Positions 11,166 to 19,394 of a DNA stretch of 41,072 bases are shown in pieces. Source of the DNA: Helicobacteraceae bacterium (GTDB taxonomy: Bacteria; Campylobacterota; Campylobacteria; Campylobacterales; SZUA-545); contig JAISOU010000012.1 of the NCBI GenBank assembly GCA_031275395.1, positions 1-41,072 of the forward strand, in the 5' to 3' direction. The notes under the pieces are model-generated. The model made no database searches, was not told the DNA's origin, and was given only the letters and a program-made list of their open reading frames with translations. The translations under genes and the position numbers were made by a program. How positions within the stretch are numbered: the stretch's first letter is position 1; each line of letters opens with the position of its first letter.

Positions 11166-12110
11166 ATGAAAGAAGTCCGTTTTATCGATCTTTTCTGCGG
11201 TATGGGCGGCTTTCGCCAAGCGATGATCGAGGTTTGCCAACAATACGCGATCGCGCCGCAATGCGTGTTTTCCTGCGATATTGATAGATTTTGCCAAGAT
11301 AGTTACGAGGCAAACTTTGGCGAACGCCCTTACGGGGATATTACAAAAATAGACGAAAACGCCATTGCCGATCACGATATTCTATTCGCGGGTTTTCCCT
11401 GTCAGCCCTTTAGTATTATCGGGCAAAAAAAAGGCTTCGAGGATACGAGAGGAACGCTGTTTTTTGATATTGCGCGGATATTAAAACATAAAGCTCCAAA
11501 AGCGCTAATACTAGAAAACGTTAAACAGCTTGTAACTCATAACGGCGGTAAAACTTTACAGGTCGTTTTAGCGACGTTAAAAGAGTTGGATTATTACGCC
11601 CAATACGCCGTTTTGAACGCTTTAGATTACGGCTTGCCGCAAAAAAGAGAACGCGTTATTATCGTTGGATTCAAAGAGCGAAACGATTTTTCTTTTCCGC
11701 CGCAGATCGAAAGCTATAAACCGCTTTGCGAGATTCTTGAAAAAAAGGTCGATCAAAAATATTACGCTTCGCAATATATTACAAATAAACGCAAAGTAAA
11801 ACATCAGTCCAATTATCCTCTATCGATATGGCACGAAAATAAATCGGGCAATATCAGCTCCTATCCCTATTCGTGCGCGCTTCGATCGGGCGCGTCGCAT
11901 AACTATTTGCTTGTCAATGGCGAAAGACGATTAACGCCGCGAGAGATGTTCAGGCTGCAAGGATTTCCCGATAGTTATAAGATTGTCGTCAATGATCATC
12001 AAGCCAAGAGGCAAGCGGGAAACGCGGCGCCGATCAATATCGTTAAAGCCGCGATCGTTAGCGTTTTGCCCTATATTATTAAAGGTTCTAACGATGAGCG
12101 ACGTTTTTGA
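11166..12110 (+). CDS. dcm: DNA (cytosine-5-)-methyltransferase
   Basis: A 314-residue protein with the C5-methylase motif order: motif I FIDLFCGMGGFR (SAM binding), motif IV GFPCQPFS with catalytic Cys79, motif VI ENV, motif VIII QKRERVIIVG, a variable target-recognition region (about 180-250), then LTPREMFRLQGFP and motif X QAGNAAPINIV. It transfers a methyl group from SAM to C5 of cytosine in a specific sequence that cannot be read from the protein. It is at the short end for the family. The next gene is a Vsr endonuclease, overlapping by 17 bases, and no restriction enzyme is adjacent. It may be a solitary methylase or the rest of a type II system. Confidence 0.93.
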   Translation: MKEVRFIDLFCGMGGFRQAMIEVCQQYAIAPQCVFSCDIDRFCQDSYEANFGERPYGDITKIDENAIADHDILFAGFPCQPFSIIGQKKGFEDTRGTLFFDIARILKHKAPKALILENVKQLVTHNGGKTLQVVLATLKELDYYAQYAVLNALDYGLPQKRERVIIVGFKERNDFSFPPQIESYKPLCEILEKKVDQKYYASQYITNKRKVKHQSNYPLSIWHENKSGNISSYPYSCALRSGASHNYLLVNGERRLTPREMFRLQGFPDSYKIVVNDHQAKRQAGNAAPINIVKAAIVSVLPYIIKGSNDERRF

Positions 12111-12498
12111 TAAAAGGCTTCGTAGTTTTGTAATGCGGCAGGTAAAAAGCGCTAAAAATCGATCGACCGAATTAAAATTGATCGAGTTTTTTAAGGCGAA
12201 TAAAATCATAGGTTGGCGCAGAAGTTTTAAGCTCTTTGGCAAACCGGATTTTGCCTTTCCAAAGATAAAACTTGCCGTATTTGTGGACGGTTGTTTTTGG
12301 CACGGACATAACTGCCGCAACGTTACGCCAAAAGATAACGCGGAGTATTGGAACGCTAAAAGGGCTAGAAATATCAAACGCGATCGACTTGTTACGGAGT
12401 TTTTGCAAAAAAAAGGTTGGCGGGTTTTACGCATTTGGGAGTGCGAATTAAATCGTAAAAATATCGCCTCGCTCGATCCTTTAAGTTTTGCAAAATAA
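12094..12498 (+). CDS. vsr: Very short patch repair endonuclease
   Basis: A 134-residue Vsr protein. It nicks 5' of the T in T:G mismatches left when 5-methylcytosine deaminates. GKPDFAF carries the catalytic Asp, VDGCFWHGHNC the zinc/active-site residues, and WRVLRIWECEL the conserved C-terminal strand. An Asp stands where E. coli Vsr has a His before GCFW; this variant is common. I chose the ATG at 12094 because the homology begins there (MSDVFDKRLRS) and AAAGG lies eight bases upstream. The frame is open further upstream, but that part only overlaps the methylase. Coupling to the methylase fits its role of limiting methylation-induced mutation. Confidence 0.93.
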   Translation: MSDVFDKRLRSFVMRQVKSAKNRSTELKLIEFFKANKIIGWRRSFKLFGKPDFAFPKIKLAVFVDGCFWHGHNCRNVTPKDNAEYWNAKRARNIKRDRLVTEFLQKKGWRVLRIWECELNRKNIASLDPLSFAK

Positions 12499-12556
12499 AC
12501 AAACAATCGACGATTTCTAAACCAACCTTATTTGCTAAAACCTACGATCTCTTTCA

Positions 12557-12616
12557 TTCCCGCGTTTCTCCGCAATGGACGCTTCGCGGGCATAACGAGA
12601 AAGGGCTGGAATGATA
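12557..12616. repeat. Intergenic repeat related to the one at 19717-19772
   Basis: The segment has ATTCCCGC, then TTTCTCC-CAATGGACGCTTC with one differing base, then a GCGGG-ATAAC segment. The same order appears at about 19718-19772, where an extra 15-20 bases are inserted between the last two parts. Both lie between genes, so this is a dispersed non-coding element, probably a remnant. Confidence 0.55.
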
Positions 12617-12658
12617 AAAAACGCCGCTTGCGCTAAATCGGGCGAAGCGGCATATCGA

Positions 12659-13342
12659 TCATAGTTTTGCGACTATATCCAAGACAAAATCGGCGCTAAT
12701 TCTCGCGCTGGATTCCAAAAACGCGTCAAAGTTAAAGCCCGCGTCCATATCCGCCGCGTCGCTAATCGAACGCAAAACAAAGATCGGAACGCCGAAACTA
12801 GCGCATACGCACGCCACAGCCGCGCCTTCCATTTCAACCGCGTCGGCTTTATAGCGTTCGGCGATTTGCGTTTTTTTCGCGCCGTCCGCGATAAACTGAT
12901 CGCCCGTAGCGATTATCCCTTTTCCCAATTTTATGCCGCGTTCAAACGCAATGCTCTCGGCGACTTTATTCAGATTAGGATCGGTGGCGAAAAAATCGCC
13001 CGTTTCGGGGATAAAACCTAGCGGGTGTCCAAACGCGGTAATATCTACGTCGTGCTGAACAAGGCGCGTCGCGTAGATCAGATCGCCAATATGCAAAGAG
13101 TTATTGATCGCCCCCGCCACGCCGCTAAAAAGGATCGTTTTCACTCCGAAACGCTCGATTAAGATCGTAGCCGTAATCGCCGCATTGACCTTCCCAATAC
13201 GACTGTAGGCCGCAAAAACCGCCTTTTCGCCATATACCCCTTCGTAGTATTTGTTGTCGCCTACAAGGTAGGTTTTTACGCCGCTTAATTTGCCCAAGAT
13301 CGGATCGATCTCCTCTCTCATAGCTCCGATGATTCCTATCAT
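12659..13342 (-). CDS. mtnN: 5'-methylthioadenosine/S-adenosylhomocysteine (aminodeoxyfutalosine) nucleosidase, copy 1
   Basis: A 227-residue enzyme that removes adenine from MTA, SAH and, in Campylobacterota, 6-amino-6-deoxyfutalosine in the menaquinone pathway. The catalytic set is complete: Glu11 (GAMREE), Glu172 (VEMEG) and Asp195 (SISDAAD), and the GAM loop that lines the adenine pocket is kept. Its start overlaps the end of fabD by four bases (ATGA). The order fabD-pfs matches Campylobacter jejuni, so this is probably the ancestral copy in function. A second copy lies at 15992-16675 on the opposite strand, and a hand count gives about 73% identity. Confidence 0.93.
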   Translation of the reverse strand: MIGIIGAMREEIDPILGKLSGVKTYLVGDNKYYEGVYGEKAVFAAYSRIGKVNAAITATILIERFGVKTILFSGVAGAINNSLHIGDLIYATRLVQHDVDITAFGHPLGFIPETGDFFATDPNLNKVAESIAFERGIKLGKGIIATGDQFIADGAKKTQIAERYKADAVEMEGAAVACVCASFGVPIFVLRSISDAADMDAGFNFDAFLESSARISADFVLDIVAKL

Positions 13343-14280
13343 TGTTCGTCCTTACTTAAGATTTCTATCGCGCTTTCGAGATCGTCGGCATTCGATACGC
13401 CGATACTCTCTTTTGCGGTAATTTTTTTGTTTAAGCCTTTCAAAACGTTTCCGTGCCCAAACTCTATAAACAGATCGGTTTCGTTTTCGATCGCCGAAAT
13501 GCTCTGTTTGTAAAGAACGGGCTTGACAAGCTGATCGCCCAAAGCCTCGATCGCCTCGCTTTTGGTCTGATAGCGTTTTAGCGTCGCGTTGGATACGATC
13601 GGCGCGATAAAGCGATCGTTTAGCTTTTGGCTTAAAAGATTCTTTAACGGTTCGCGCGCCGGCTCTAAAAGCGGACAGTGGCTGGCGACGGACATATCCA
13701 GAAGAAGCGCGCGTTTTGCGCCGATAGCTTTAGCGCGATCGACTAGGCTCTCCAAATCCGCCTTGATTCCAGCCAAAACGATCTGCCCGTCGCAGTTGTA
13801 GTTTGCCGCCCAAACGCGCTTGCCCTCTTTTTGCGCCGTTAAACAAAGCTCTTGCGCCGCTTCGTCGCTTAAACCAAGCGTAACCATCATACCAGCCCCC
13901 GCGCCCTCGCAGGCTTTTTGCATGAACTCTCCGCGCTTTGCGGCGATCGCTACCGCGTCGCCAAGCGTCAAACCGCCCATCGCGCTAATCGCGCTTAATT
14001 CGCCCAGCGAATGCCCGAGCGCGTAAAGCGGCTTGATCGACAACTCGTTTTCAAAGAGCTTGTAGGCGATTAACGAAACGAACAAAATCGCCGGCTGCGT
14101 ATATTCTGTGCGCCCCAAGCGATCGTTTTCGACGAAAAGAATCTCGCTTAGATCGTAGCCAAGCGCGTCGTTTGCCTCGCTTAGCGCCTCTTTGGCGAAG
14201 TCGTAGCGATCGACGAAACTTTTGCCCATACCGACCGCCTGAGATCCCTGACCGGAAAAAATACAAGTTATTTTTTTCAT
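13339..14280 (-). CDS. fabD: Malonyl-CoA:ACP transacylase
   Basis: A 313-residue enzyme that loads malonyl groups onto acyl carrier protein at the start of fatty acid synthesis. The N-terminal IFSGQGSQAVGMGK motif, the nucleophile elbow GHSLGE (Ser near 91) and the later SVASHCPLL and FGHGNVL segments are all in place, and the length is normal. The ATG has AAGGA eight bases upstream. On the minus strand a TAAAAT at 14306-14301 could be its -10 box. It heads an operon with the nucleosidase, overlapping by four bases. Confidence 0.94.
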   Translation of the reverse strand: MKKITCIFSGQGSQAVGMGKSFVDRYDFAKEALSEANDALGYDLSEILFVENDRLGRTEYTQPAILFVSLIAYKLFENELSIKPLYALGHSLGELSAISAMGGLTLGDAVAIAAKRGEFMQKACEGAGAGMMVTLGLSDEAAQELCLTAQKEGKRVWAANYNCDGQIVLAGIKADLESLVDRAKAIGAKRALLLDMSVASHCPLLEPAREPLKNLLSQKLNDRFIAPIVSNATLKRYQTKSEAIEALGDQLVKPVLYKQSISAIENETDLFIEFGHGNVLKGLNKKITAKESIGVSNADDLESAIEILSKDEQ

Positions 14281-14338
14281 TCCCCATTCCTTTTTTTGCG
14301 ATTTTAACCTTTACGCGCTTCAAGGGCAATGGCGTAAA

Positions 14339-14977
14339 ATGCGACCTATGACCGCCGAAACATTTTTGTCGCAACTAAACGCTATGTCGTCCGATAAGCG
14401 CGCCGCCTTTTCGCAAACGGCACTGAAACTAAGCAAGCTATCCGCCGCGCAGGTCGTAAGGAGTATGCTAGACGATCGGGATTTTGGCGTTCGGATCGCG
14501 GCGATCAAGGCGATTCGCCATTTTCAATTCGACATTTACGAAAAATCGCTGATCCGCCTTCTGCTCGACGAGCAAAACGAGGTAAGGGTCGCCGCTTTGA
14601 AATCGCTTTGCAGTTTTGGCAAGAGCGAGCATTTCAAACTCGCCCGCGCCTTTTACGACGAAAACGCGGAGCTGCGCGGGCTGATTATCGATTCGTTCGT
14701 TAATTTCAGCGATCAGTACGACGCGCACAATTTCATCTTTTATCTGCTCGACAGCGCGAACGAGAAGATACGTCAATGCGCTATCAACTGGTTTGAAAAG
14801 GCGTTTGGGCGCGATATTTTTCTTCCGTGGATCGCGCAAATCTACGAAGATTCCCCTTGGTCGTTACGACTCTACTTTGAAGAGCTTTTCGCGCACCGCC
14901 TGAAACTGCTGTTTTCGCACCCGCGTTTTGGATACCGATTTAAGCTCGTTTGGTTAAATAAAAGGATCGCCGTATGA
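14339..14977 (+). CDS. HEAT-repeat protein of unknown function
   Basis: A 212-residue, nearly all-helical protein. Residues about 40-150 hold at least three HEAT-like repeats (DDRDFGVRIAAIKAIRHF, DEQNEVRVAALKSLCSFG, DENAELRGLIIDSFVNFS), which form a curved scaffold for protein binding. No signal peptide or catalytic motif is seen. Two starts are possible, 14339 or 14348. Neither has a clear ribosome site, and a TAAAAT overlaps the first. It overlaps the next gene, a P-loop ATPase, by four bases, so the two products may act together. The role is unknown. Confidence 0.75.
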   Translation: MRPMTAETFLSQLNAMSSDKRAAFSQTALKLSKLSAAQVVRSMLDDRDFGVRIAAIKAIRHFQFDIYEKSLIRLLLDEQNEVRVAALKSLCSFGKSEHFKLARAFYDENAELRGLIIDSFVNFSDQYDAHNFIFYLLDSANEKIRQCAINWFEKAFGRDIFLPWIAQIYEDSPWSLRLYFEELFAHRLKLLFSHPRFGYRFKLVWLNKRIAV

Positions 14978-15840
14978 ACCGCGCCGAAGCTTACGAGCTA
15001 CTTAAAGGATTTTTGAAAGCGGGCGTGGATTGCGCGATTATCGGCGAGGCGCAAAGCGGCAAAACCGCGCTCGCCAGATCGCTTGCGCCAGCCGCGCCGA
15101 TCTTACGCGCAAGCGAGGTTTCAAACGAACATCTAAGCGCGATTAGATCGCTTCTGATCGGCACGGATATTGCGATTATAGAAAACGCCGCGAAGGAAAA
15201 CGCGCTATTTTTAGAGGAGCTTTTATCGGTTAGGGCGATCTTAGGAACGCCGTTTGAATGTCGTTTTATCATTACGGCGCGGCAAAATCTGGCTATCGAC
15301 GCGATCGCTACGATTAGCCTCGAGGCGATCGCGCCACAGGAGTGGTTGAAATGGGCTAGATCGGCGCATATTCACCCCGCGCTGATCTCGCTTGCCGCGG
15401 ACGATCCCGCGTTTTTAAGCCGCCATCATTTTCGCTCGATCGAAGCTCTGTCGCGCGTTCTTAGCGCTAGACCTTCTATAAAAACGCTGGAAGCTACGAT
15501 CGGCTCTATACTCGGCGACGATTTGGGGGCAAGATCGACGCTAGCGGAGTTTATCGCCGCGCCGATCGAATCGCTCGAACATATCCGCGCCTCGACCGAC
15601 GAAAACGCCAAAGCCTATGAAACCGCGTTTATCGAACGGCTAAAAACCAAGCCTAAACCGGAGGATTGCCAGCACTTTGCGCGACACGTCGCCTCTTTAG
15701 CGCAAAGCGAGCCAAAAGAGGCTTTGGAGCTACTTAAAGAGCTTCTTAAAAGCCAAAAAGCCGCCGAAGCTCTCGAAACGACGTTAAAAGAGCCAAGCGT
15801 TCAAAAGATGATCGATAAAACGATTCAAGAGCTTTCTTAA
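14974..15840 (+). CDS. P-loop ATPase of unknown role
   Basis: A 288-residue protein with a Walker A motif, GEAQSGKT (about 23-30), and a hydrophobic strand ending in acidic residues, TDIAIIENA (about 68-76), in the Walker B position. The middle resembles the lid region of AAA-type ATPases. The C-terminal third is helical and charged. It overlaps the HEAT-repeat gene by four bases (ATGA), and nothing follows it closely. A loader or chaperone ATPase using the HEAT protein as adaptor would fit, but that is inference and I do not recognise the family. Confidence 0.7.
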   Translation: MNRAEAYELLKGFLKAGVDCAIIGEAQSGKTALARSLAPAAPILRASEVSNEHLSAIRSLLIGTDIAIIENAAKENALFLEELLSVRAILGTPFECRFIITARQNLAIDAIATISLEAIAPQEWLKWARSAHIHPALISLAADDPAFLSRHHFRSIEALSRVLSARPSIKTLEATIGSILGDDLGARSTLAEFIAAPIESLEHIRASTDENAKAYETAFIERLKTKPKPEDCQHFARHVASLAQSEPKEALELLKELLKSQKAAEALETTLKEPSVQKMIDKTIQELS

Positions 15841-15953
15841 ACGCTTTTTATTTGCGCGCGATCGCAACGCGCTAAAACGCCGCCGTAAGCGCTAAAACTC
15901 TTCGCATATTAAACTCATTTTTATAACGAATAGGCGACAAAGCGTTCGCTAAA

Positions 15954-15959
15954 TATAAT
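15954..15959 (+). promoter_or_regulatory. Probable -10 box for nucleosidase copy 2
   Basis: A perfect TATAAT lies 32 bases before the ATG. The matching -35 position (TAGGCG) is poor, as is usual in Campylobacterota, where the -35 box is weakly conserved. Confidence 0.5.
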
Positions 15960-15991
15960 CCGAATAGCGATCAGAGCGAAAAGGCAAAACG

Positions 15992-16675
15992 ATGATTGGA
16001 ATTATTGTATCCAGAAATGAGGAGATCAGCCCGTTTTTGGACAAAATGCGTAGCGTCAAAACCCATTTTATTGGTAGCAATCAGTATCACGAAGGGCTAT
16101 TCGGCGATAAAAAGATCGTCGTCGTTCATAGTCGTTTCGGAAAGGTAAACGCGGCGATCAGAGCGACGATTTTAATCGAGCGTTTCGGCGCGAAAACGAT
16201 CCTTTTTAACGGCGTCGCCGGCGCGCTCAATAAATCGCTTCATATAGGCGATCTCGTCTGCGCGACCAGCCTTATTCAGCACGACGTAGATATAGAGGCG
16301 CTTGGTTATGCGGTGGGTTTTATCCCCGAAACGGGCGATTTTTTCGCGACCGATCCTTTTTTGAATGGTTTAGCCGAAAGCGTGGCGATCGAACGCGGCT
16401 TAAAATTAAAAAAAGGGATAGTCGCTACGGGCGATCAGTTTATCGCGGACGACGCGAAAAAAGCGCAAATCGCCGAACGCTATAAAGCCGTCGCGGTCGA
16501 AATGGAAGGCGCGGCGGCGGCGTGCGTTTGCTCCGCGTTTGGCGTTCCGATTTTCGTTTTGCGGACGATCAGCGACGCGGCGGATATGGACGCTGGCTTT
16601 AACTTTGACGCGTTTTTGGAATCCAGCGTCGTGATCAGTACGGGTTTTACGTTAGATATGGTCGCAAAACTATGA
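15992..16675 (+). CDS. Nucleosidase paralogue, copy 2, with altered pocket loop
   Basis: A 227-residue paralogue of the nucleosidase at 12659-13342 with no gaps between them. A hand count gives 24/50 identical in residues 1-50 but 131/160 in 51-210. Glu11, Glu172 and Asp195 are all kept, so it should be active. The GAM segment before Glu11, which contacts adenine in the family, is VSR here. This suggests a change of substrate preference or efficiency, for instance division of MTA/SAH and aminodeoxyfutalosine duties between copies. It overlaps the following ttcA-like gene by four bases; C. jejuni has pfs followed by that gene. Confidence 0.88.
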   Translation: MIGIIVSRNEEISPFLDKMRSVKTHFIGSNQYHEGLFGDKKIVVVHSRFGKVNAAIRATILIERFGAKTILFNGVAGALNKSLHIGDLVCATSLIQHDVDIEALGYAVGFIPETGDFFATDPFLNGLAESVAIERGLKLKKGIVATGDQFIADDAKKAQIAERYKAVAVEMEGAAAACVCSAFGVPIFVLRTISDAADMDAGFNFDAFLESSVVISTGFTLDMVAKL

Positions 16676-17436
16676 ATCGGAACATAGCCAGAATGCCGAA
16701 ACGGGTTGTTAGAACTTTTGCGCAGACGATTGCGGAATACAAACTAATAGAGGAGGGCGATCGCGTTTTACTCGGTTTAAGCGGCGGCAAAGATTCCTTG
16801 ACGCTCGCTCATCTGCTTTTGCGATTACAAAAACGCGCTCCGTTTAAGTTTGAGTTTTTGGCGGTTACGATCGACTACGGAATGGGCGAGGATTTATCGC
16901 AAACTCTCGCGCACTGCGAACAATTTGGTATTCCATACCATATAGAGAAAACCGGTATTTTCAAAACGGCAAAGGATCATATTCGCGAAGGCAGCTCTTT
17001 TTGCAGTTATTTTTCGCGTATGCGCCGCGGCGCGTTATACGGCTTTTGCGAGCGGCTAAACTATAAAACTTTAGCGCTCGCCCACCATTTAGACGACGCG
17101 GCGGAGAGCTTTTTTATGAGCTTATTTTACGGCGGCAAACTGAGATCAATGCCGCCCGTTTATCGCGCTTCGGAACATAATGTGAAAGTTATTCGTCCGC
17201 TTATCAAAGTTCGGGAGGCGCAGCTTGCCGAGTGCGCTAAAGAAAACGGTTTTCCGATCGTAGGCGACGAAAACTGCCCCGCGTTCGCTATGAACGTAAA
17301 AATGCCGCGCGTTAGATACGAAACTAAAACGTGGCTAAAAGAGCTTGAAGGCAAGCGCTCGGGACTTTTTGATCAGCTTCGGCGCGCTTTTGAAACTCTT
17401 GACGTTAAATCTTTTGCCGATTTACGTTATATCTAG
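16672..17436 (+). CDS. TtcA-like tRNA thiolation PP-loop ATPase
   Basis: A 254-residue member of the TtcA group. TtcA proteins adenylate and thiolate tRNA cytidine-32 using an Fe-S cluster. The PP-loop SGGKDS (about 40-45), the FCSYFSRMRRG region, AHHLDDAAESFFM and YGGKLRSMPP all match. In E. coli TtcA the cluster is held by CxxC plus a later Cys. Here the first Cys and a later one (DENCPAF) remain, but the second Cys of CxxC is Phe. The cluster ligation or target may therefore differ, and I leave the symbol blank. It is coupled to nucleosidase copy 2. Confidence 0.85.
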   Translation: MNRNIARMPKRVVRTFAQTIAEYKLIEEGDRVLLGLSGGKDSLTLAHLLLRLQKRAPFKFEFLAVTIDYGMGEDLSQTLAHCEQFGIPYHIEKTGIFKTAKDHIREGSSFCSYFSRMRRGALYGFCERLNYKTLALAHHLDDAAESFFMSLFYGGKLRSMPPVYRASEHNVKVIRPLIKVREAQLAECAKENGFPIVGDENCPAFAMNVKMPRVRYETKTWLKELEGKRSGLFDQLRRAFETLDVKSFADLRYI

Positions 17437-17489: not shown

Positions 17490-18260
17490 ATGAAAACGAC
17501 TAATTTATTTACGGCGATCGCTCTTGCGGCGGCGTTTTGCTTTTTTGGGTGCGAAAGCGATAGTTCGGACGAAGCCCGCGCTTACGATCGGCAAAAATCT
17601 CTCGACGACGGCGACTACGCGAACGTTTTAGAGCTGACAAAAAATTGCGGCGGCGATCAGGCGTGCTTGATGGATAGAGGCGCGGCTTATATGGGCTTGG
17701 CAGGATTTGACGCGCCCACGATTATTGAAGCGGTAACGGACGAAAAGGATGATAAACGCTATTTCGAGCTACTTTCGGACAAGATCAAACCGGACGCAAA
17801 CGAACGTCTTAAAGACGCGAACGTTACTTACGGGGAGGTTATTAAGGCGCGAGGCAAAAGCGTCGCCAGTTGCGCAGATTCTGGAGTCTCGCTTAACTCA
17901 TACGAAAATAGCGCCTGCTTTAATCGCGGATTAACGTCGATCGGCAGCAGCGCCGTTATAGCCGACGAGGTTGCAAAATTATACGACGACCTAAGCGGTA
18001 GTTGCGGTAATACGATCGACACTTGTTTTTCTGGCGCCGCTAACGGCGAGATTAGGGAATTGCTTAAAGACGCGGCGGGGTTGATTTGGGACGAATCGAA
18101 CGTTTTGATTGATATGATCAATGTTGGCGATTCTGACGTTAAAGGAAAGGTCGAAGAGATCAAAGGAGATATTTGCTCCAATTTAGGTAATAATTGCTCG
18201 AAACAAGACATTCTTGCCAACCTTGACAATATATTTCAGTATATTATAAAGAGCAGATAG
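17490..18260 (+). CDS. Lipoprotein of unknown function, Cys-rich
   Basis: A 256-residue protein with a type II signal peptide: a lysine-containing start, a hydrophobic core and the lipobox FFGC at residues 18-21. It should therefore be anchored in a membrane facing the periplasm. The mature part has paired cysteines (CGGDQAC, SCADSGVSLNSYENSAC, CGNTIDTC, CSNLGNNC) that suggest several disulphides, and it is mainly helical. AAAGGA precedes the ATG. It is nine bases before an outer membrane protein gene, so the two are probably co-transcribed and may work together at the envelope. No family recognised. Confidence 0.8.
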   Translation: MKTTNLFTAIALAAAFCFFGCESDSSDEARAYDRQKSLDDGDYANVLELTKNCGGDQACLMDRGAAYMGLAGFDAPTIIEAVTDEKDDKRYFELLSDKIKPDANERLKDANVTYGEVIKARGKSVASCADSGVSLNSYENSACFNRGLTSIGSSAVIADEVAKLYDDLSGSCGNTIDTCFSGAANGEIRELLKDAAGLIWDESNVLIDMINVGDSDVKGKVEEIKGDICSNLGNNCSKQDILANLDNIFQYIIKSR

Positions 18261-18269
18261 GCGAAAATT

Positions 18270-19394
18270 ATGCGAAAAACAACGTTATCGGTTGCGGCGA
18301 TTTTAGCGCTTGCGGTTTCTGCGCAAGCGCTAAATTACGAATATAGGCAAGTTTATAAAGATCCGAAAATAATGGGAGCGGGCGGCGCGAACGTTGCTAC
18401 GGGCGGCAACTTTAACGCGGTTTTTAGTAATCCTGCGGGCTTGGCTAAAATCCCGCTAGAGTATGGTTGGGAGATAGACGTTTTGCATATTGGCGTTTCT
18501 ATCAACGAGGACATAACCGATCTGCAAGATATTATAGACGACGCGGAAGAGAGCGATTCAAAAGCCGCGCAAACGCTTAAAGAACATATCGGCGATCGCT
18601 ATTCGATAGGCGCGTCCGTAAAGCCTTTTTCGATCGCCAAAATGTTTGACGAAACCGCTTTTGGAATCGGGCTTATCTCTAGCGTAAACGTCAATGCGGG
18701 AGTTCATCAAGGCTTTGGCGCAAGCGGCATTTTAGAAGCCGATATTTTGGCGTTTGGCGGCGTAGCGGGCGGGATCGCTCATAATTTTAACGAGCTAACG
18801 ATCGGCTCATACGAGCTTAATACGCTTTCCGTCGGGGTCGGGGCAAAGGTTTTGCGCTACGGATCGTTAAGCCGAAGCTACTCCGCCGTCGATCTTGCCA
18901 ATGAAGAGTTTGACAATATAGAAGACGAGCTTAAAGAGGGGACGAGCGTCGTTTGGGATCTTGGCGTTATTTACGATATTTTTCCGCATTTTTCGGTGGG
19001 TTTAAGCGCGCTTAATATCGGCGGGATCGGCGAAGGCGAAACGGAGATTCCTACGACGATCAACGTTGGCGCTTCTTACGTTTATCGTATAGGCGATCGA
19101 TCGTTTTTTAACCAAGTGCGAATCGGCGCGGATTATATCGATATAGCAAAAAAATATCCCGACGATAGCTATGTTAAGCGAACGCGAATTGGCGCGGATT
19201 TGAACGTATGGGAGGGCTGGCTTTCCTCTTTTGCCGTGCAAGCAGGCTTGTATCAGGGCGCATGGACGGCGGGCGCGAGTTTTCGCCTATCTTTTCTTGA
19301 TCTGGCTTTCTCGACATACGCCGAAGAGCTTGGCGCGTATTCCGGACAAGATCGCGATCGCCGCTATATGGCTTCTTTCGGTTTTAATTGGTAA
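18270..19394 (+). CDS. OmpP1/FadL- or PorV-like outer membrane beta-barrel
   Basis: A 374-residue protein with a cleavable signal peptide (AVSAQA, cut near residue 20). The segment GAGGANVATGGNFNAVFSNPAGLA is the typical N-terminal block of the OmpP1/FadL/TodX and conjugal-TraF-like barrels. It continues with alternating beta strands and ends in an aromatic pattern (MASFGFNW) as outer membrane proteins do for BAM recognition. Hydrophobic compound uptake is the known role of FadL-type barrels, but the substrate here is unknown. It follows the lipoprotein gene closely. The spacer after it holds a MITE-like element. Confidence 0.8.
   Translation: MRKTTLSVAAILALAVSAQALNYEYRQVYKDPKIMGAGGANVATGGNFNAVFSNPAGLAKIPLEYGWEIDVLHIGVSINEDITDLQDIIDDAEESDSKAAQTLKEHIGDRYSIGASVKPFSIAKMFDETAFGIGLISSVNVNAGVHQGFGASGILEADILAFGGVAGGIAHNFNELTIGSYELNTLSVGVGAKVLRYGSLSRSYSAVDLANEEFDNIEDELKEGTSVVWDLGVIYDIFPHFSVGLSALNIGGIGEGETEIPTTINVGASYVYRIGDRSFFNQVRIGADYIDIAKKYPDDSYVKRTRIGADLNVWEGWLSSFAVQAGLYQGAWTAGASFRLSFLDLAFSTYAEELGAYSGQDRDRRYMASFGFNW

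Follow-up and report, generated by a model that had tools for sequence, protein, structure and literature searches.

Why should a bacterium carry two copies of the same enzyme gene on opposite strands, at the two ends of a small group of genes, and does the second copy still do the work of the first? This question is raised by a locus within a stretch of 41,072 nucleotides (assembly GCA_031275395.1, contig JAISOU010000012.1; the whole stretch is referred to below as the window) from a Helicobacteraceae bacterium. The gene, pfs, encodes 5'-methylthioadenosine/S-adenosylhomocysteine/aminodeoxyfutalosine nucleosidase (MTAN). In Campylobacterota, one such enzyme takes part in the methyl cycle, in 5'-deoxyadenosine clearance and in the making of menaquinone; in Helicobacter pylori it is a target for drugs (PMC13280913). 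The probable overall explanation is that pfs was duplicated in connection with an inversion, that gene conversion later acted between the copies, and that one of them (pfs1) was conserved and the pocket of the other (pfs2) was changed.

Two intact nucleosidase genes in inverted orientation

The original prediction, made from the sequence of the window, of an inverted pair of intact nucleosidase genes was borne out: pfs1 and pfs2 each encode 227 amino acids and lie on opposite strands. Their products align without gaps (BLASTP) with 166 of 227 residues identical (73%), the identity being 24/50 (48%) over residues 1-50 and 131/160 (82%) over residues 51-210; the counts given in the prediction equal these recomputed values. 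At the DNA level, an inverted repeat of 546 nt (83% complementary) spans codons ~46 to the stop of both copies. Past the gene ends no similarity was found between the flanks, and neither fabD nor ttcA remnants were present beside the copies. Both proteins scored above the cut-offs of PRK05584 (the MTAN equivalog, cut-off 169; 274 bits for pfs1 and 248 bits for pfs2) and TIGR01704 (cut-off 73.8; 168 and 153 bits, respectively), and both matched the PNP_UDP_1 fold (PF01048). A search of the nearly complete window genome produced no third MTAN match even at E <= 10.

The residues E11, E172 and D195, equivalent to the catalytic Glu12, Glu174 and Asp197 in E. coli numbering (Glu12 and Asp197 are named in the titles of PDB entries 1z5n and 1z5o), are kept in pfs1, in pfs2 and in pfs2 of the sister genome. 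Residues 6-8 read G6-A7-M8 in pfs1 and V6-S7-R8 in pfs2. Copy 2 had been expected to retain its catalytic residues and to carry VSR in place of GAM near Glu11, and the orthologue alignment agrees with both statements. The genes and signals of the locus are as follows.

12659..13342, minus strand: pfs1 (copy 1), MTAN of 227 amino acids; its start overlaps the fabD stop (ATGA)
12659..13204, minus strand: inverted-repeat arm within pfs1, codons ~46 to the stop, presumed homogenised part
13339..14280, minus strand: fabD, malonyl-CoA:ACP transacylase (TIGR00128, 290 bits, cut-off 260.9)
14339..14977, plus strand: HEAT-repeat protein gene (HEAT_2, 48.3 bits), the ancestral divergent neighbour of fabD
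14974..15840, plus strand: gene for a putative P-loop NTPase ("AAA"), overlapping the HEAT gene; GEAQSGKT motif recognised by eye
15954..15959, plus strand: TATAAT, probable -10 box of a pfs2-ttcA promoter, identical in sequence in the sister genome
15992..16675, plus strand: pfs2 (copy 2), diverged MTAN of 227 amino acids; its stop overlaps the ttcA start (ATGA)
16130..16675, plus strand: inverted-repeat arm within pfs2, codons ~46 to the stop, 83% identical to the pfs1 arm
16672..17436, plus strand: ttcA-like PP-loop gene downstream of pfs2 (ATP_bind_3, 84 bits; PRK10696 score 205 bits, under the cut-off of 272)

As predicted, fabD adjoins one copy (pfs1) and the ttcA-like gene the other (pfs2), and the ATGA overlaps at both junctions are kept in the window species and in its sister.

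Origin of the arrangement

The window genome is denoted G000 and the sister genome G005; the locus of the latter, on contig L032, is identical in place to record JAISRI010000222, a metagenome-assembled genome. In seven relatives belonging to the same genus and family, the ancestral order is AAA and HEAT pointing leftwards, followed by fabD, pfs and ttcA pointing rightwards. In the window and in G005 the order is pfs1 and fabD leftwards, followed by HEAT, AAA, pfs2 and ttcA rightwards. AAA, HEAT, fabD and pfs have been inverted together as one block, with pfs at both of its ends, and it is because the whole block was inverted that the HEAT and AAA genes lie between the copies.

The prediction that a duplication with inversion had split fabD-pfs-ttcA is thus supported by the gene order of relatives, but its further claim that the event had left two unknown genes in between did not hold: HEAT and AAA are the normal divergent neighbours of fabD in relatives. 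The HEAT gene is divergent to fabD in G001, G002, G003, G006, G008, G010, G011 and G013, and the AAA gene adjoins it wherever both were found in the family. That fabD and ttcA are joined elsewhere by a single pfs was confirmed in Campylobacterota relatives; in more distant families fabD, a single pfs and ttcA also follow one another in this sequence, two of these families having additional DNA between the genes. No two genomes of the genus share the gene that lies past AAA, and neighbouring genes therefore did not reveal the left inversion breakpoint.

The five other members of the genus that were searched carry a single close pfs copy. When 199 genomes of the order (at least 90% complete) were surveyed, nearly all likewise had one close copy, and two strong MTAN matches were found only in G000 and G005. 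Among 15 genomes of the family no intermediate was found. One further genome of the order, G144, has two weak MTAN matches (best E 7.9e-37), which may be a split gene or a second copy.

The phylogeny proposed in the prediction was run, and the copies proved to be sisters: trees of the full-length genes and of their proteins place pfs1 and pfs2 from the two species in a single clade (support 100%), and copy 2 did not group with a distant lineage. The duplication is therefore lineage-specific and older than the split of G000 and G005. A gain of pfs2, or of its N-terminal part, by transfer from another lineage is highly improbable. The N-terminal amino-acid tree, in which the copies are ungrouped, would fit such a transfer, but this topology is unsupported; the N-terminal nucleotide tree joins the copies at 80%, the full-length and C-terminal trees unite them at 99-100%, and no closer relative was present in the 199 genomes of the order or in the genome_contigs set. 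As far as these data go, a horizontal origin of copy 2 is rejected by the trees and by the absence of a closer donor. The chance that the two-copy arrangement is an assembly artefact is practically negligible, even though both assemblies are drafts, of 96 and about 240 contigs, and pfs1 of G005 is cut off by the end of its contig. The two independent assemblies agree on the internal order from pfs1 to ttcA, and the copies (73% and 78% identical as proteins) are different enough that reads should not be confused. An artefact was accordingly rejected, since the separately assembled contig L032 has the same arrangement.

We suggest that, on the stem leading to G000 and G005, the single pfs of a fabD-pfs-ttcA operon was duplicated alongside inversion of AAA-HEAT-fabD-pfs. 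Such an event would have left pfs1 still coupled to fabD, and pfs2 still coupled to ttcA behind a promoter of its own. The TATAAT box of this putative promoter was missed by a two-hexamer promoter scan, which requires a -35 element.

The locus is a well-supported, lineage-specific inverted duplication, and it matches the pattern known as "DNA duplication associated with inversion". The process is described for H. pylori (Furuta et al. 2011, as cited in PMC4671568), and it is proposed for hpn and hpn-2, which flank an inverted four-gene cluster. As in the hpn/hpn-2 case, a short cluster is inverted here, the gene stands inverted at both of its ends, and one paralogue is nearly unchanged and the other diverged. 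Unlike hpn, pfs encodes a core metabolic enzyme, its paralogues are partly homogenised and the breakpoints are not mapped to the base. For this bacterial class, the locus is a further example of gene duplication linked to an inversion.

Probable gene conversion and the divergence of residues 1-50

The original prediction was right that divergence is greatest in residues 1-50, but a focus on the active site as its cause held only in part, since silent sites match the contrast. At third positions the copies agree with a frequency of 0.46 over codons 1-50 and of 0.76 over codons 51-210. Where the residue is the same, codon identity between copies is 0.46-0.61 for codons 1-50 vs mostly 0.74-0.77 for codons 51-227, with 0.68 in one comparison restricted to codons 51-128; between orthologues the corresponding values are 0.90 for codons 1-50 and 0.82 beyond. 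Residues 1-50 are also the most variable part of the protein among single-copy orthologues. In simulations under a partition model with proportional branch lengths (300 replicates), the observed N-minus-C divergence contrast of 0.199 was reached in 0/300 (simulated 0.059 +/- 0.038), and between the G000 and G005 orthologues the N-minus-C difference is slightly negative.

Because the contrast extends to silent sites and exceeds the simulations, conversion is preferred over selection on the protein. Neither more rapid mutation of the 5' end nor protein selection alone gives this contrast. We infer, with moderate support, that gene conversion homogenised codons ~51-227, which accounts for it better than selection by itself would. 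Ectopic conversion between the inverted copies would have homogenised this part after the duplication, and the first 50 codons would represent older, unconverted divergence.

Selection on the copies and changes in pfs2

The two genes have evolved at different rates since the species separated. Over residues 1-128 the pfs1 product shares 98% identity with its counterpart in G005, with a nonsynonymous rate (dN) of 0-0.01 and a synonymous rate (dS) of 0.17-0.32 over the 128 shared codons; for pfs2 the identity is 87%, dN 0.05-0.07 and dS 0.15-0.37. The dN/dS ratio is roughly 0.2-0.5 for the pfs2 orthologues and near 0 for pfs1. The pfs2 orthologues differ at 29 residues vs 44.5 +/- 3.4 expected if neutral, and 66% of the neutral simulations would also carry a stop. 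Given this deficit and the open frame, pfs2 is judged to be constrained: it is faster than pfs1 yet constrained, and less so than pfs1. The possibility that pfs2 is a pseudogene was considered and found unsupported, as neither species has a disrupted frame and the gene is still under constraint.

The changes in pfs2 were located by means of 88 columns conserved at 90% or more across 57 Campylobacterota orthologues. Counting both species, 17 of the 66 changes in pfs2 and none of the 25 in pfs1 fall at these columns (p = 0.003). Those of pfs2 that are common to both species are G6V, M8R, A45V, T57R, T102E, F104L, H106Y, V176A and A213V; Ile49->Phe occurs in the window pfs2 only. Met8, Phe104 and His106 are invariant in 57/57 other orthologues. 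The Met of the conserved GAM motif, present in pfs1, is absent from pfs2, where both species have Arg, so that the predicted alteration of the neighbourhood of Glu11 in copy 2 was found in both. This Met is best regarded as a conserved feature of Campylobacterota enzymes and not as a proven requirement for activity. Phe150, Met171, Arg191, Ser194 and Phe205 are also intact in pfs2.

In E. coli MTAN, the 5'-alkylthio subsite is lined by Met9, Ile50, Val102, Phe105', Pro113', Met173 and Phe207, which we take to correspond to positions 8, 49, 101, 104, 112, 171 and 205 here. At these positions pfs2 has changed 3/7 residues in the window and 2/7 in both species, vs 0/11 of the base, ribose and catalytic residues. 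The AlphaFold2 model of Pfs2 is confident (pLDDT 92.3), and its best match is Campylobacter jejuni MTAN (PDB 6aym, TM-score 0.95), with 47% identity in the structure alignment. The protein resembles Campylobacterota MTANs (C. jejuni 6aym; H. pylori 3nm4 and 4bmx) in its fold, length and E11, E172 and D195, and departs from them in having VSR or VAR for GAM, and Leu104 and Tyr106 in place of the Phe and His of 57/57 orthologues.

Possible function of the second copy

The window genome encodes futalosine-pathway proteins of the MqnA/D type (PF02621) and the MqnE/C type (TIGR03700), as well as LuxS, these searches showing the presence of the pathways and not which copy serves them; an S-adenosylhomocysteine (SAH) hydrolase was not found in it. 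Four MTAN substrates are known, which differ at their 5' side: 5'-methylthioadenosine (MTA), SAH, 5'-deoxyadenosine and aminodeoxyfutalosine (PMC7557402). Since the pathways are present and both an SAH hydrolase and a third close MTAN are absent, Pfs1 and Pfs2 between them probably hydrolyse all four. Pfs1 would continue the ancestral housekeeping role under strong constraint and, being unchanged at every conserved position, would be expected to stay a generalist. Pfs2 would have kept its fold, catalytic residues and frame and changed on the 5'-alkylthio side (Met8->Arg, Phe104->Leu and His106->Tyr in both species); judged from these residues, it has most likely remained a nucleosidase, one that differs in its preference for the 5' substituent or is less active on it. 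Its retention may be due in part to the translational coupling of ttcA to pfs2.

Nearly equal in standing to such a change of 5' preference or activity is the reading, in itself less than evenly probable, that pfs2 is a redundant copy under relaxed constraint and heading to loss, kept open mainly for the translation of ttcA, which would also be read from the putative promoter ahead of pfs2, and repaired in its 3' part by conversion. It gains from the dN/dS values, from the overlap with ttcA in both species, and from the fact that 25.6 changes at conserved columns would be expected where 17 were seen (p = 0.019), which is only mild avoidance. It is harder to reconcile with the intact state of all recognised catalytic, base and ribose residues in both species, with the shortfall of changes against the neutral expectation and the absence of any stop, and with the confidently folded model; moreover, 4/9 of the shared conserved-column changes lie at residues 6, 8, 104 and 106, which looks less than random. 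A division of labour as suggested in the prediction, with one copy serving the methyl cycle (MTA and SAH) and the other cleaving aminodeoxyfutalosine for menaquinone synthesis, would be a possible special case of the changed 5' preference; we consider it unlikely. The set of pathways in the genome, the lack of another close MTAN, the 5'-side differences among the substrates and the location of the pfs2 changes on that side of the pocket, with the catalytic part kept, would all suit it, and in Pfs2 the carboxylate of either aminodeoxyfutalosine or SAH could be a partner for Arg8. In the single-copy relatives, however, one enzyme always covers both tasks, the copies adjoin fabD and ttcA and not mqn or luxS genes, and pfs1, without conserved-column changes, should stay a generalist. 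It is rather unlikely, too, that Pfs2 is a neofunctionalised specialist that would bind a substrate with an acidic group at its 5' side, e.g. aminodeoxyfutalosine, by means of Arg8 and the altered partner loop (E102, L104, Y106), beside a generalist Pfs1. More improbable still is that Pfs2 acts mainly as a partner subunit, in Pfs1-Pfs2 heterodimers with one altered and one hybrid pocket, the 5' subsite of MTAN being made up in part by residues of the adjoining subunit. In favour of it we count positions 104 and 106, presumably lying, by E. coli MTAN, in the loop that completes the neighbour's pocket. Such dimers would accord with the homodimeric nature of MTAN (PMC6371041), and the homogenised codons 51-227 would keep the interface alike.

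Several points weigh against the explanation preferred here, namely inversion-linked duplication followed by conversion and a change in the pocket of pfs2. Duplication and inversion may be one event, but the same order would result if pfs had first been duplicated in tandem and the DNA between the copies had then been inverted. The silent-codon test is weak on the window pair alone (Fisher p = 0.12); two of the three comparisons with G005 gave p 0.007-0.009, and the third, covering codons 1-128 only, gave p = 0.61. The N-termini of both copies are rather long-branched relative to G003 (p about 0.015), and part of the N-terminal contrast may come from a period of accelerated change on the stem. 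With regard to the pocket, the enrichment of changes in the subsite is marginal (p = 0.04, and 0.14 for shared changes only), and the assignment of Met8, Ile49 and Phe104 to it follows E. coli MTAN structures.

More than one MTAN per genome is also found in Borrelia burgdorferi (Pfs, Bgp and MtnN) and Aeromonas hydrophila (MtaN-2). The active sites of the Borrelia copies are reported to be highly conserved, and two of these proteins to be exported (PMC7557402), unlike the present pair, in which the pocket of one copy differs and inspection by eye showed no export signal. Among the genomes of the order surveyed, the clear second copy restricted to G000 and G005 lacks a Met that is present in all the other orthologues compared. 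A naturally occurring enzyme whose 5' pocket is changed but whose catalytic residues are intact would reveal which residues set the choice of substrate and, if Pfs2 is indeed a specialist, one Campylobacterota enzyme would here have been split into a generalist and a specialist.

Neighbouring genes and rearrangements

Directly after pfs1 there is a probable terminator:

12620..12655, minus strand: hairpin followed by a T run (fold z = -2.06 for 12560-12665)

Beyond it, positions 11166-12498 contain an orphan-looking pair encoding a C-5 cytosine DNA methylase and a Vsr mismatch endonuclease. The pair is conserved in G001, G003, G005 and G006; no restriction enzyme was seen beside the pair in the window. 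The methylase is 97% identical between the window and G005, and the alignment ends at window position 12529, which indicates a further rearrangement at the Vsr/pfs1 junction (12499-12658), a junction that the window does not share with G005. In G005 the methylase-Vsr pair is followed by repeats resembling repetitive extragenic palindromes (REP-like, ATTCCCGCCTTCGCGGGAAT type) and a ubiA-like prenyltransferase gene, and the rearrangement perhaps occurred at such repeats.

The AAA gene product had no match in Pfam or NCBIfam, and the protein is fast-evolving (25-58% identity to the window protein outside G005). Between AAA and pfs2, G005 carries a gene for a putative lipoprotein of 189 amino acids (L032:2920-3489, minus strand). 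At ~15865-15911 of the window only ~30 bases resemble the 5' end of this gene, and we therefore infer that it was deleted in G000. Its homologue in G001 (L108:9017-9565) lies ~450 bases from ubiA.

On the other side of the locus, a fast-evolving putative lipoprotein gene (17490-18260) and a gene for a conserved outer-membrane-like protein (18270-19394), neither with a Pfam match, follow ttcA, and the two are syntenic 3' of ttcA in several relatives.

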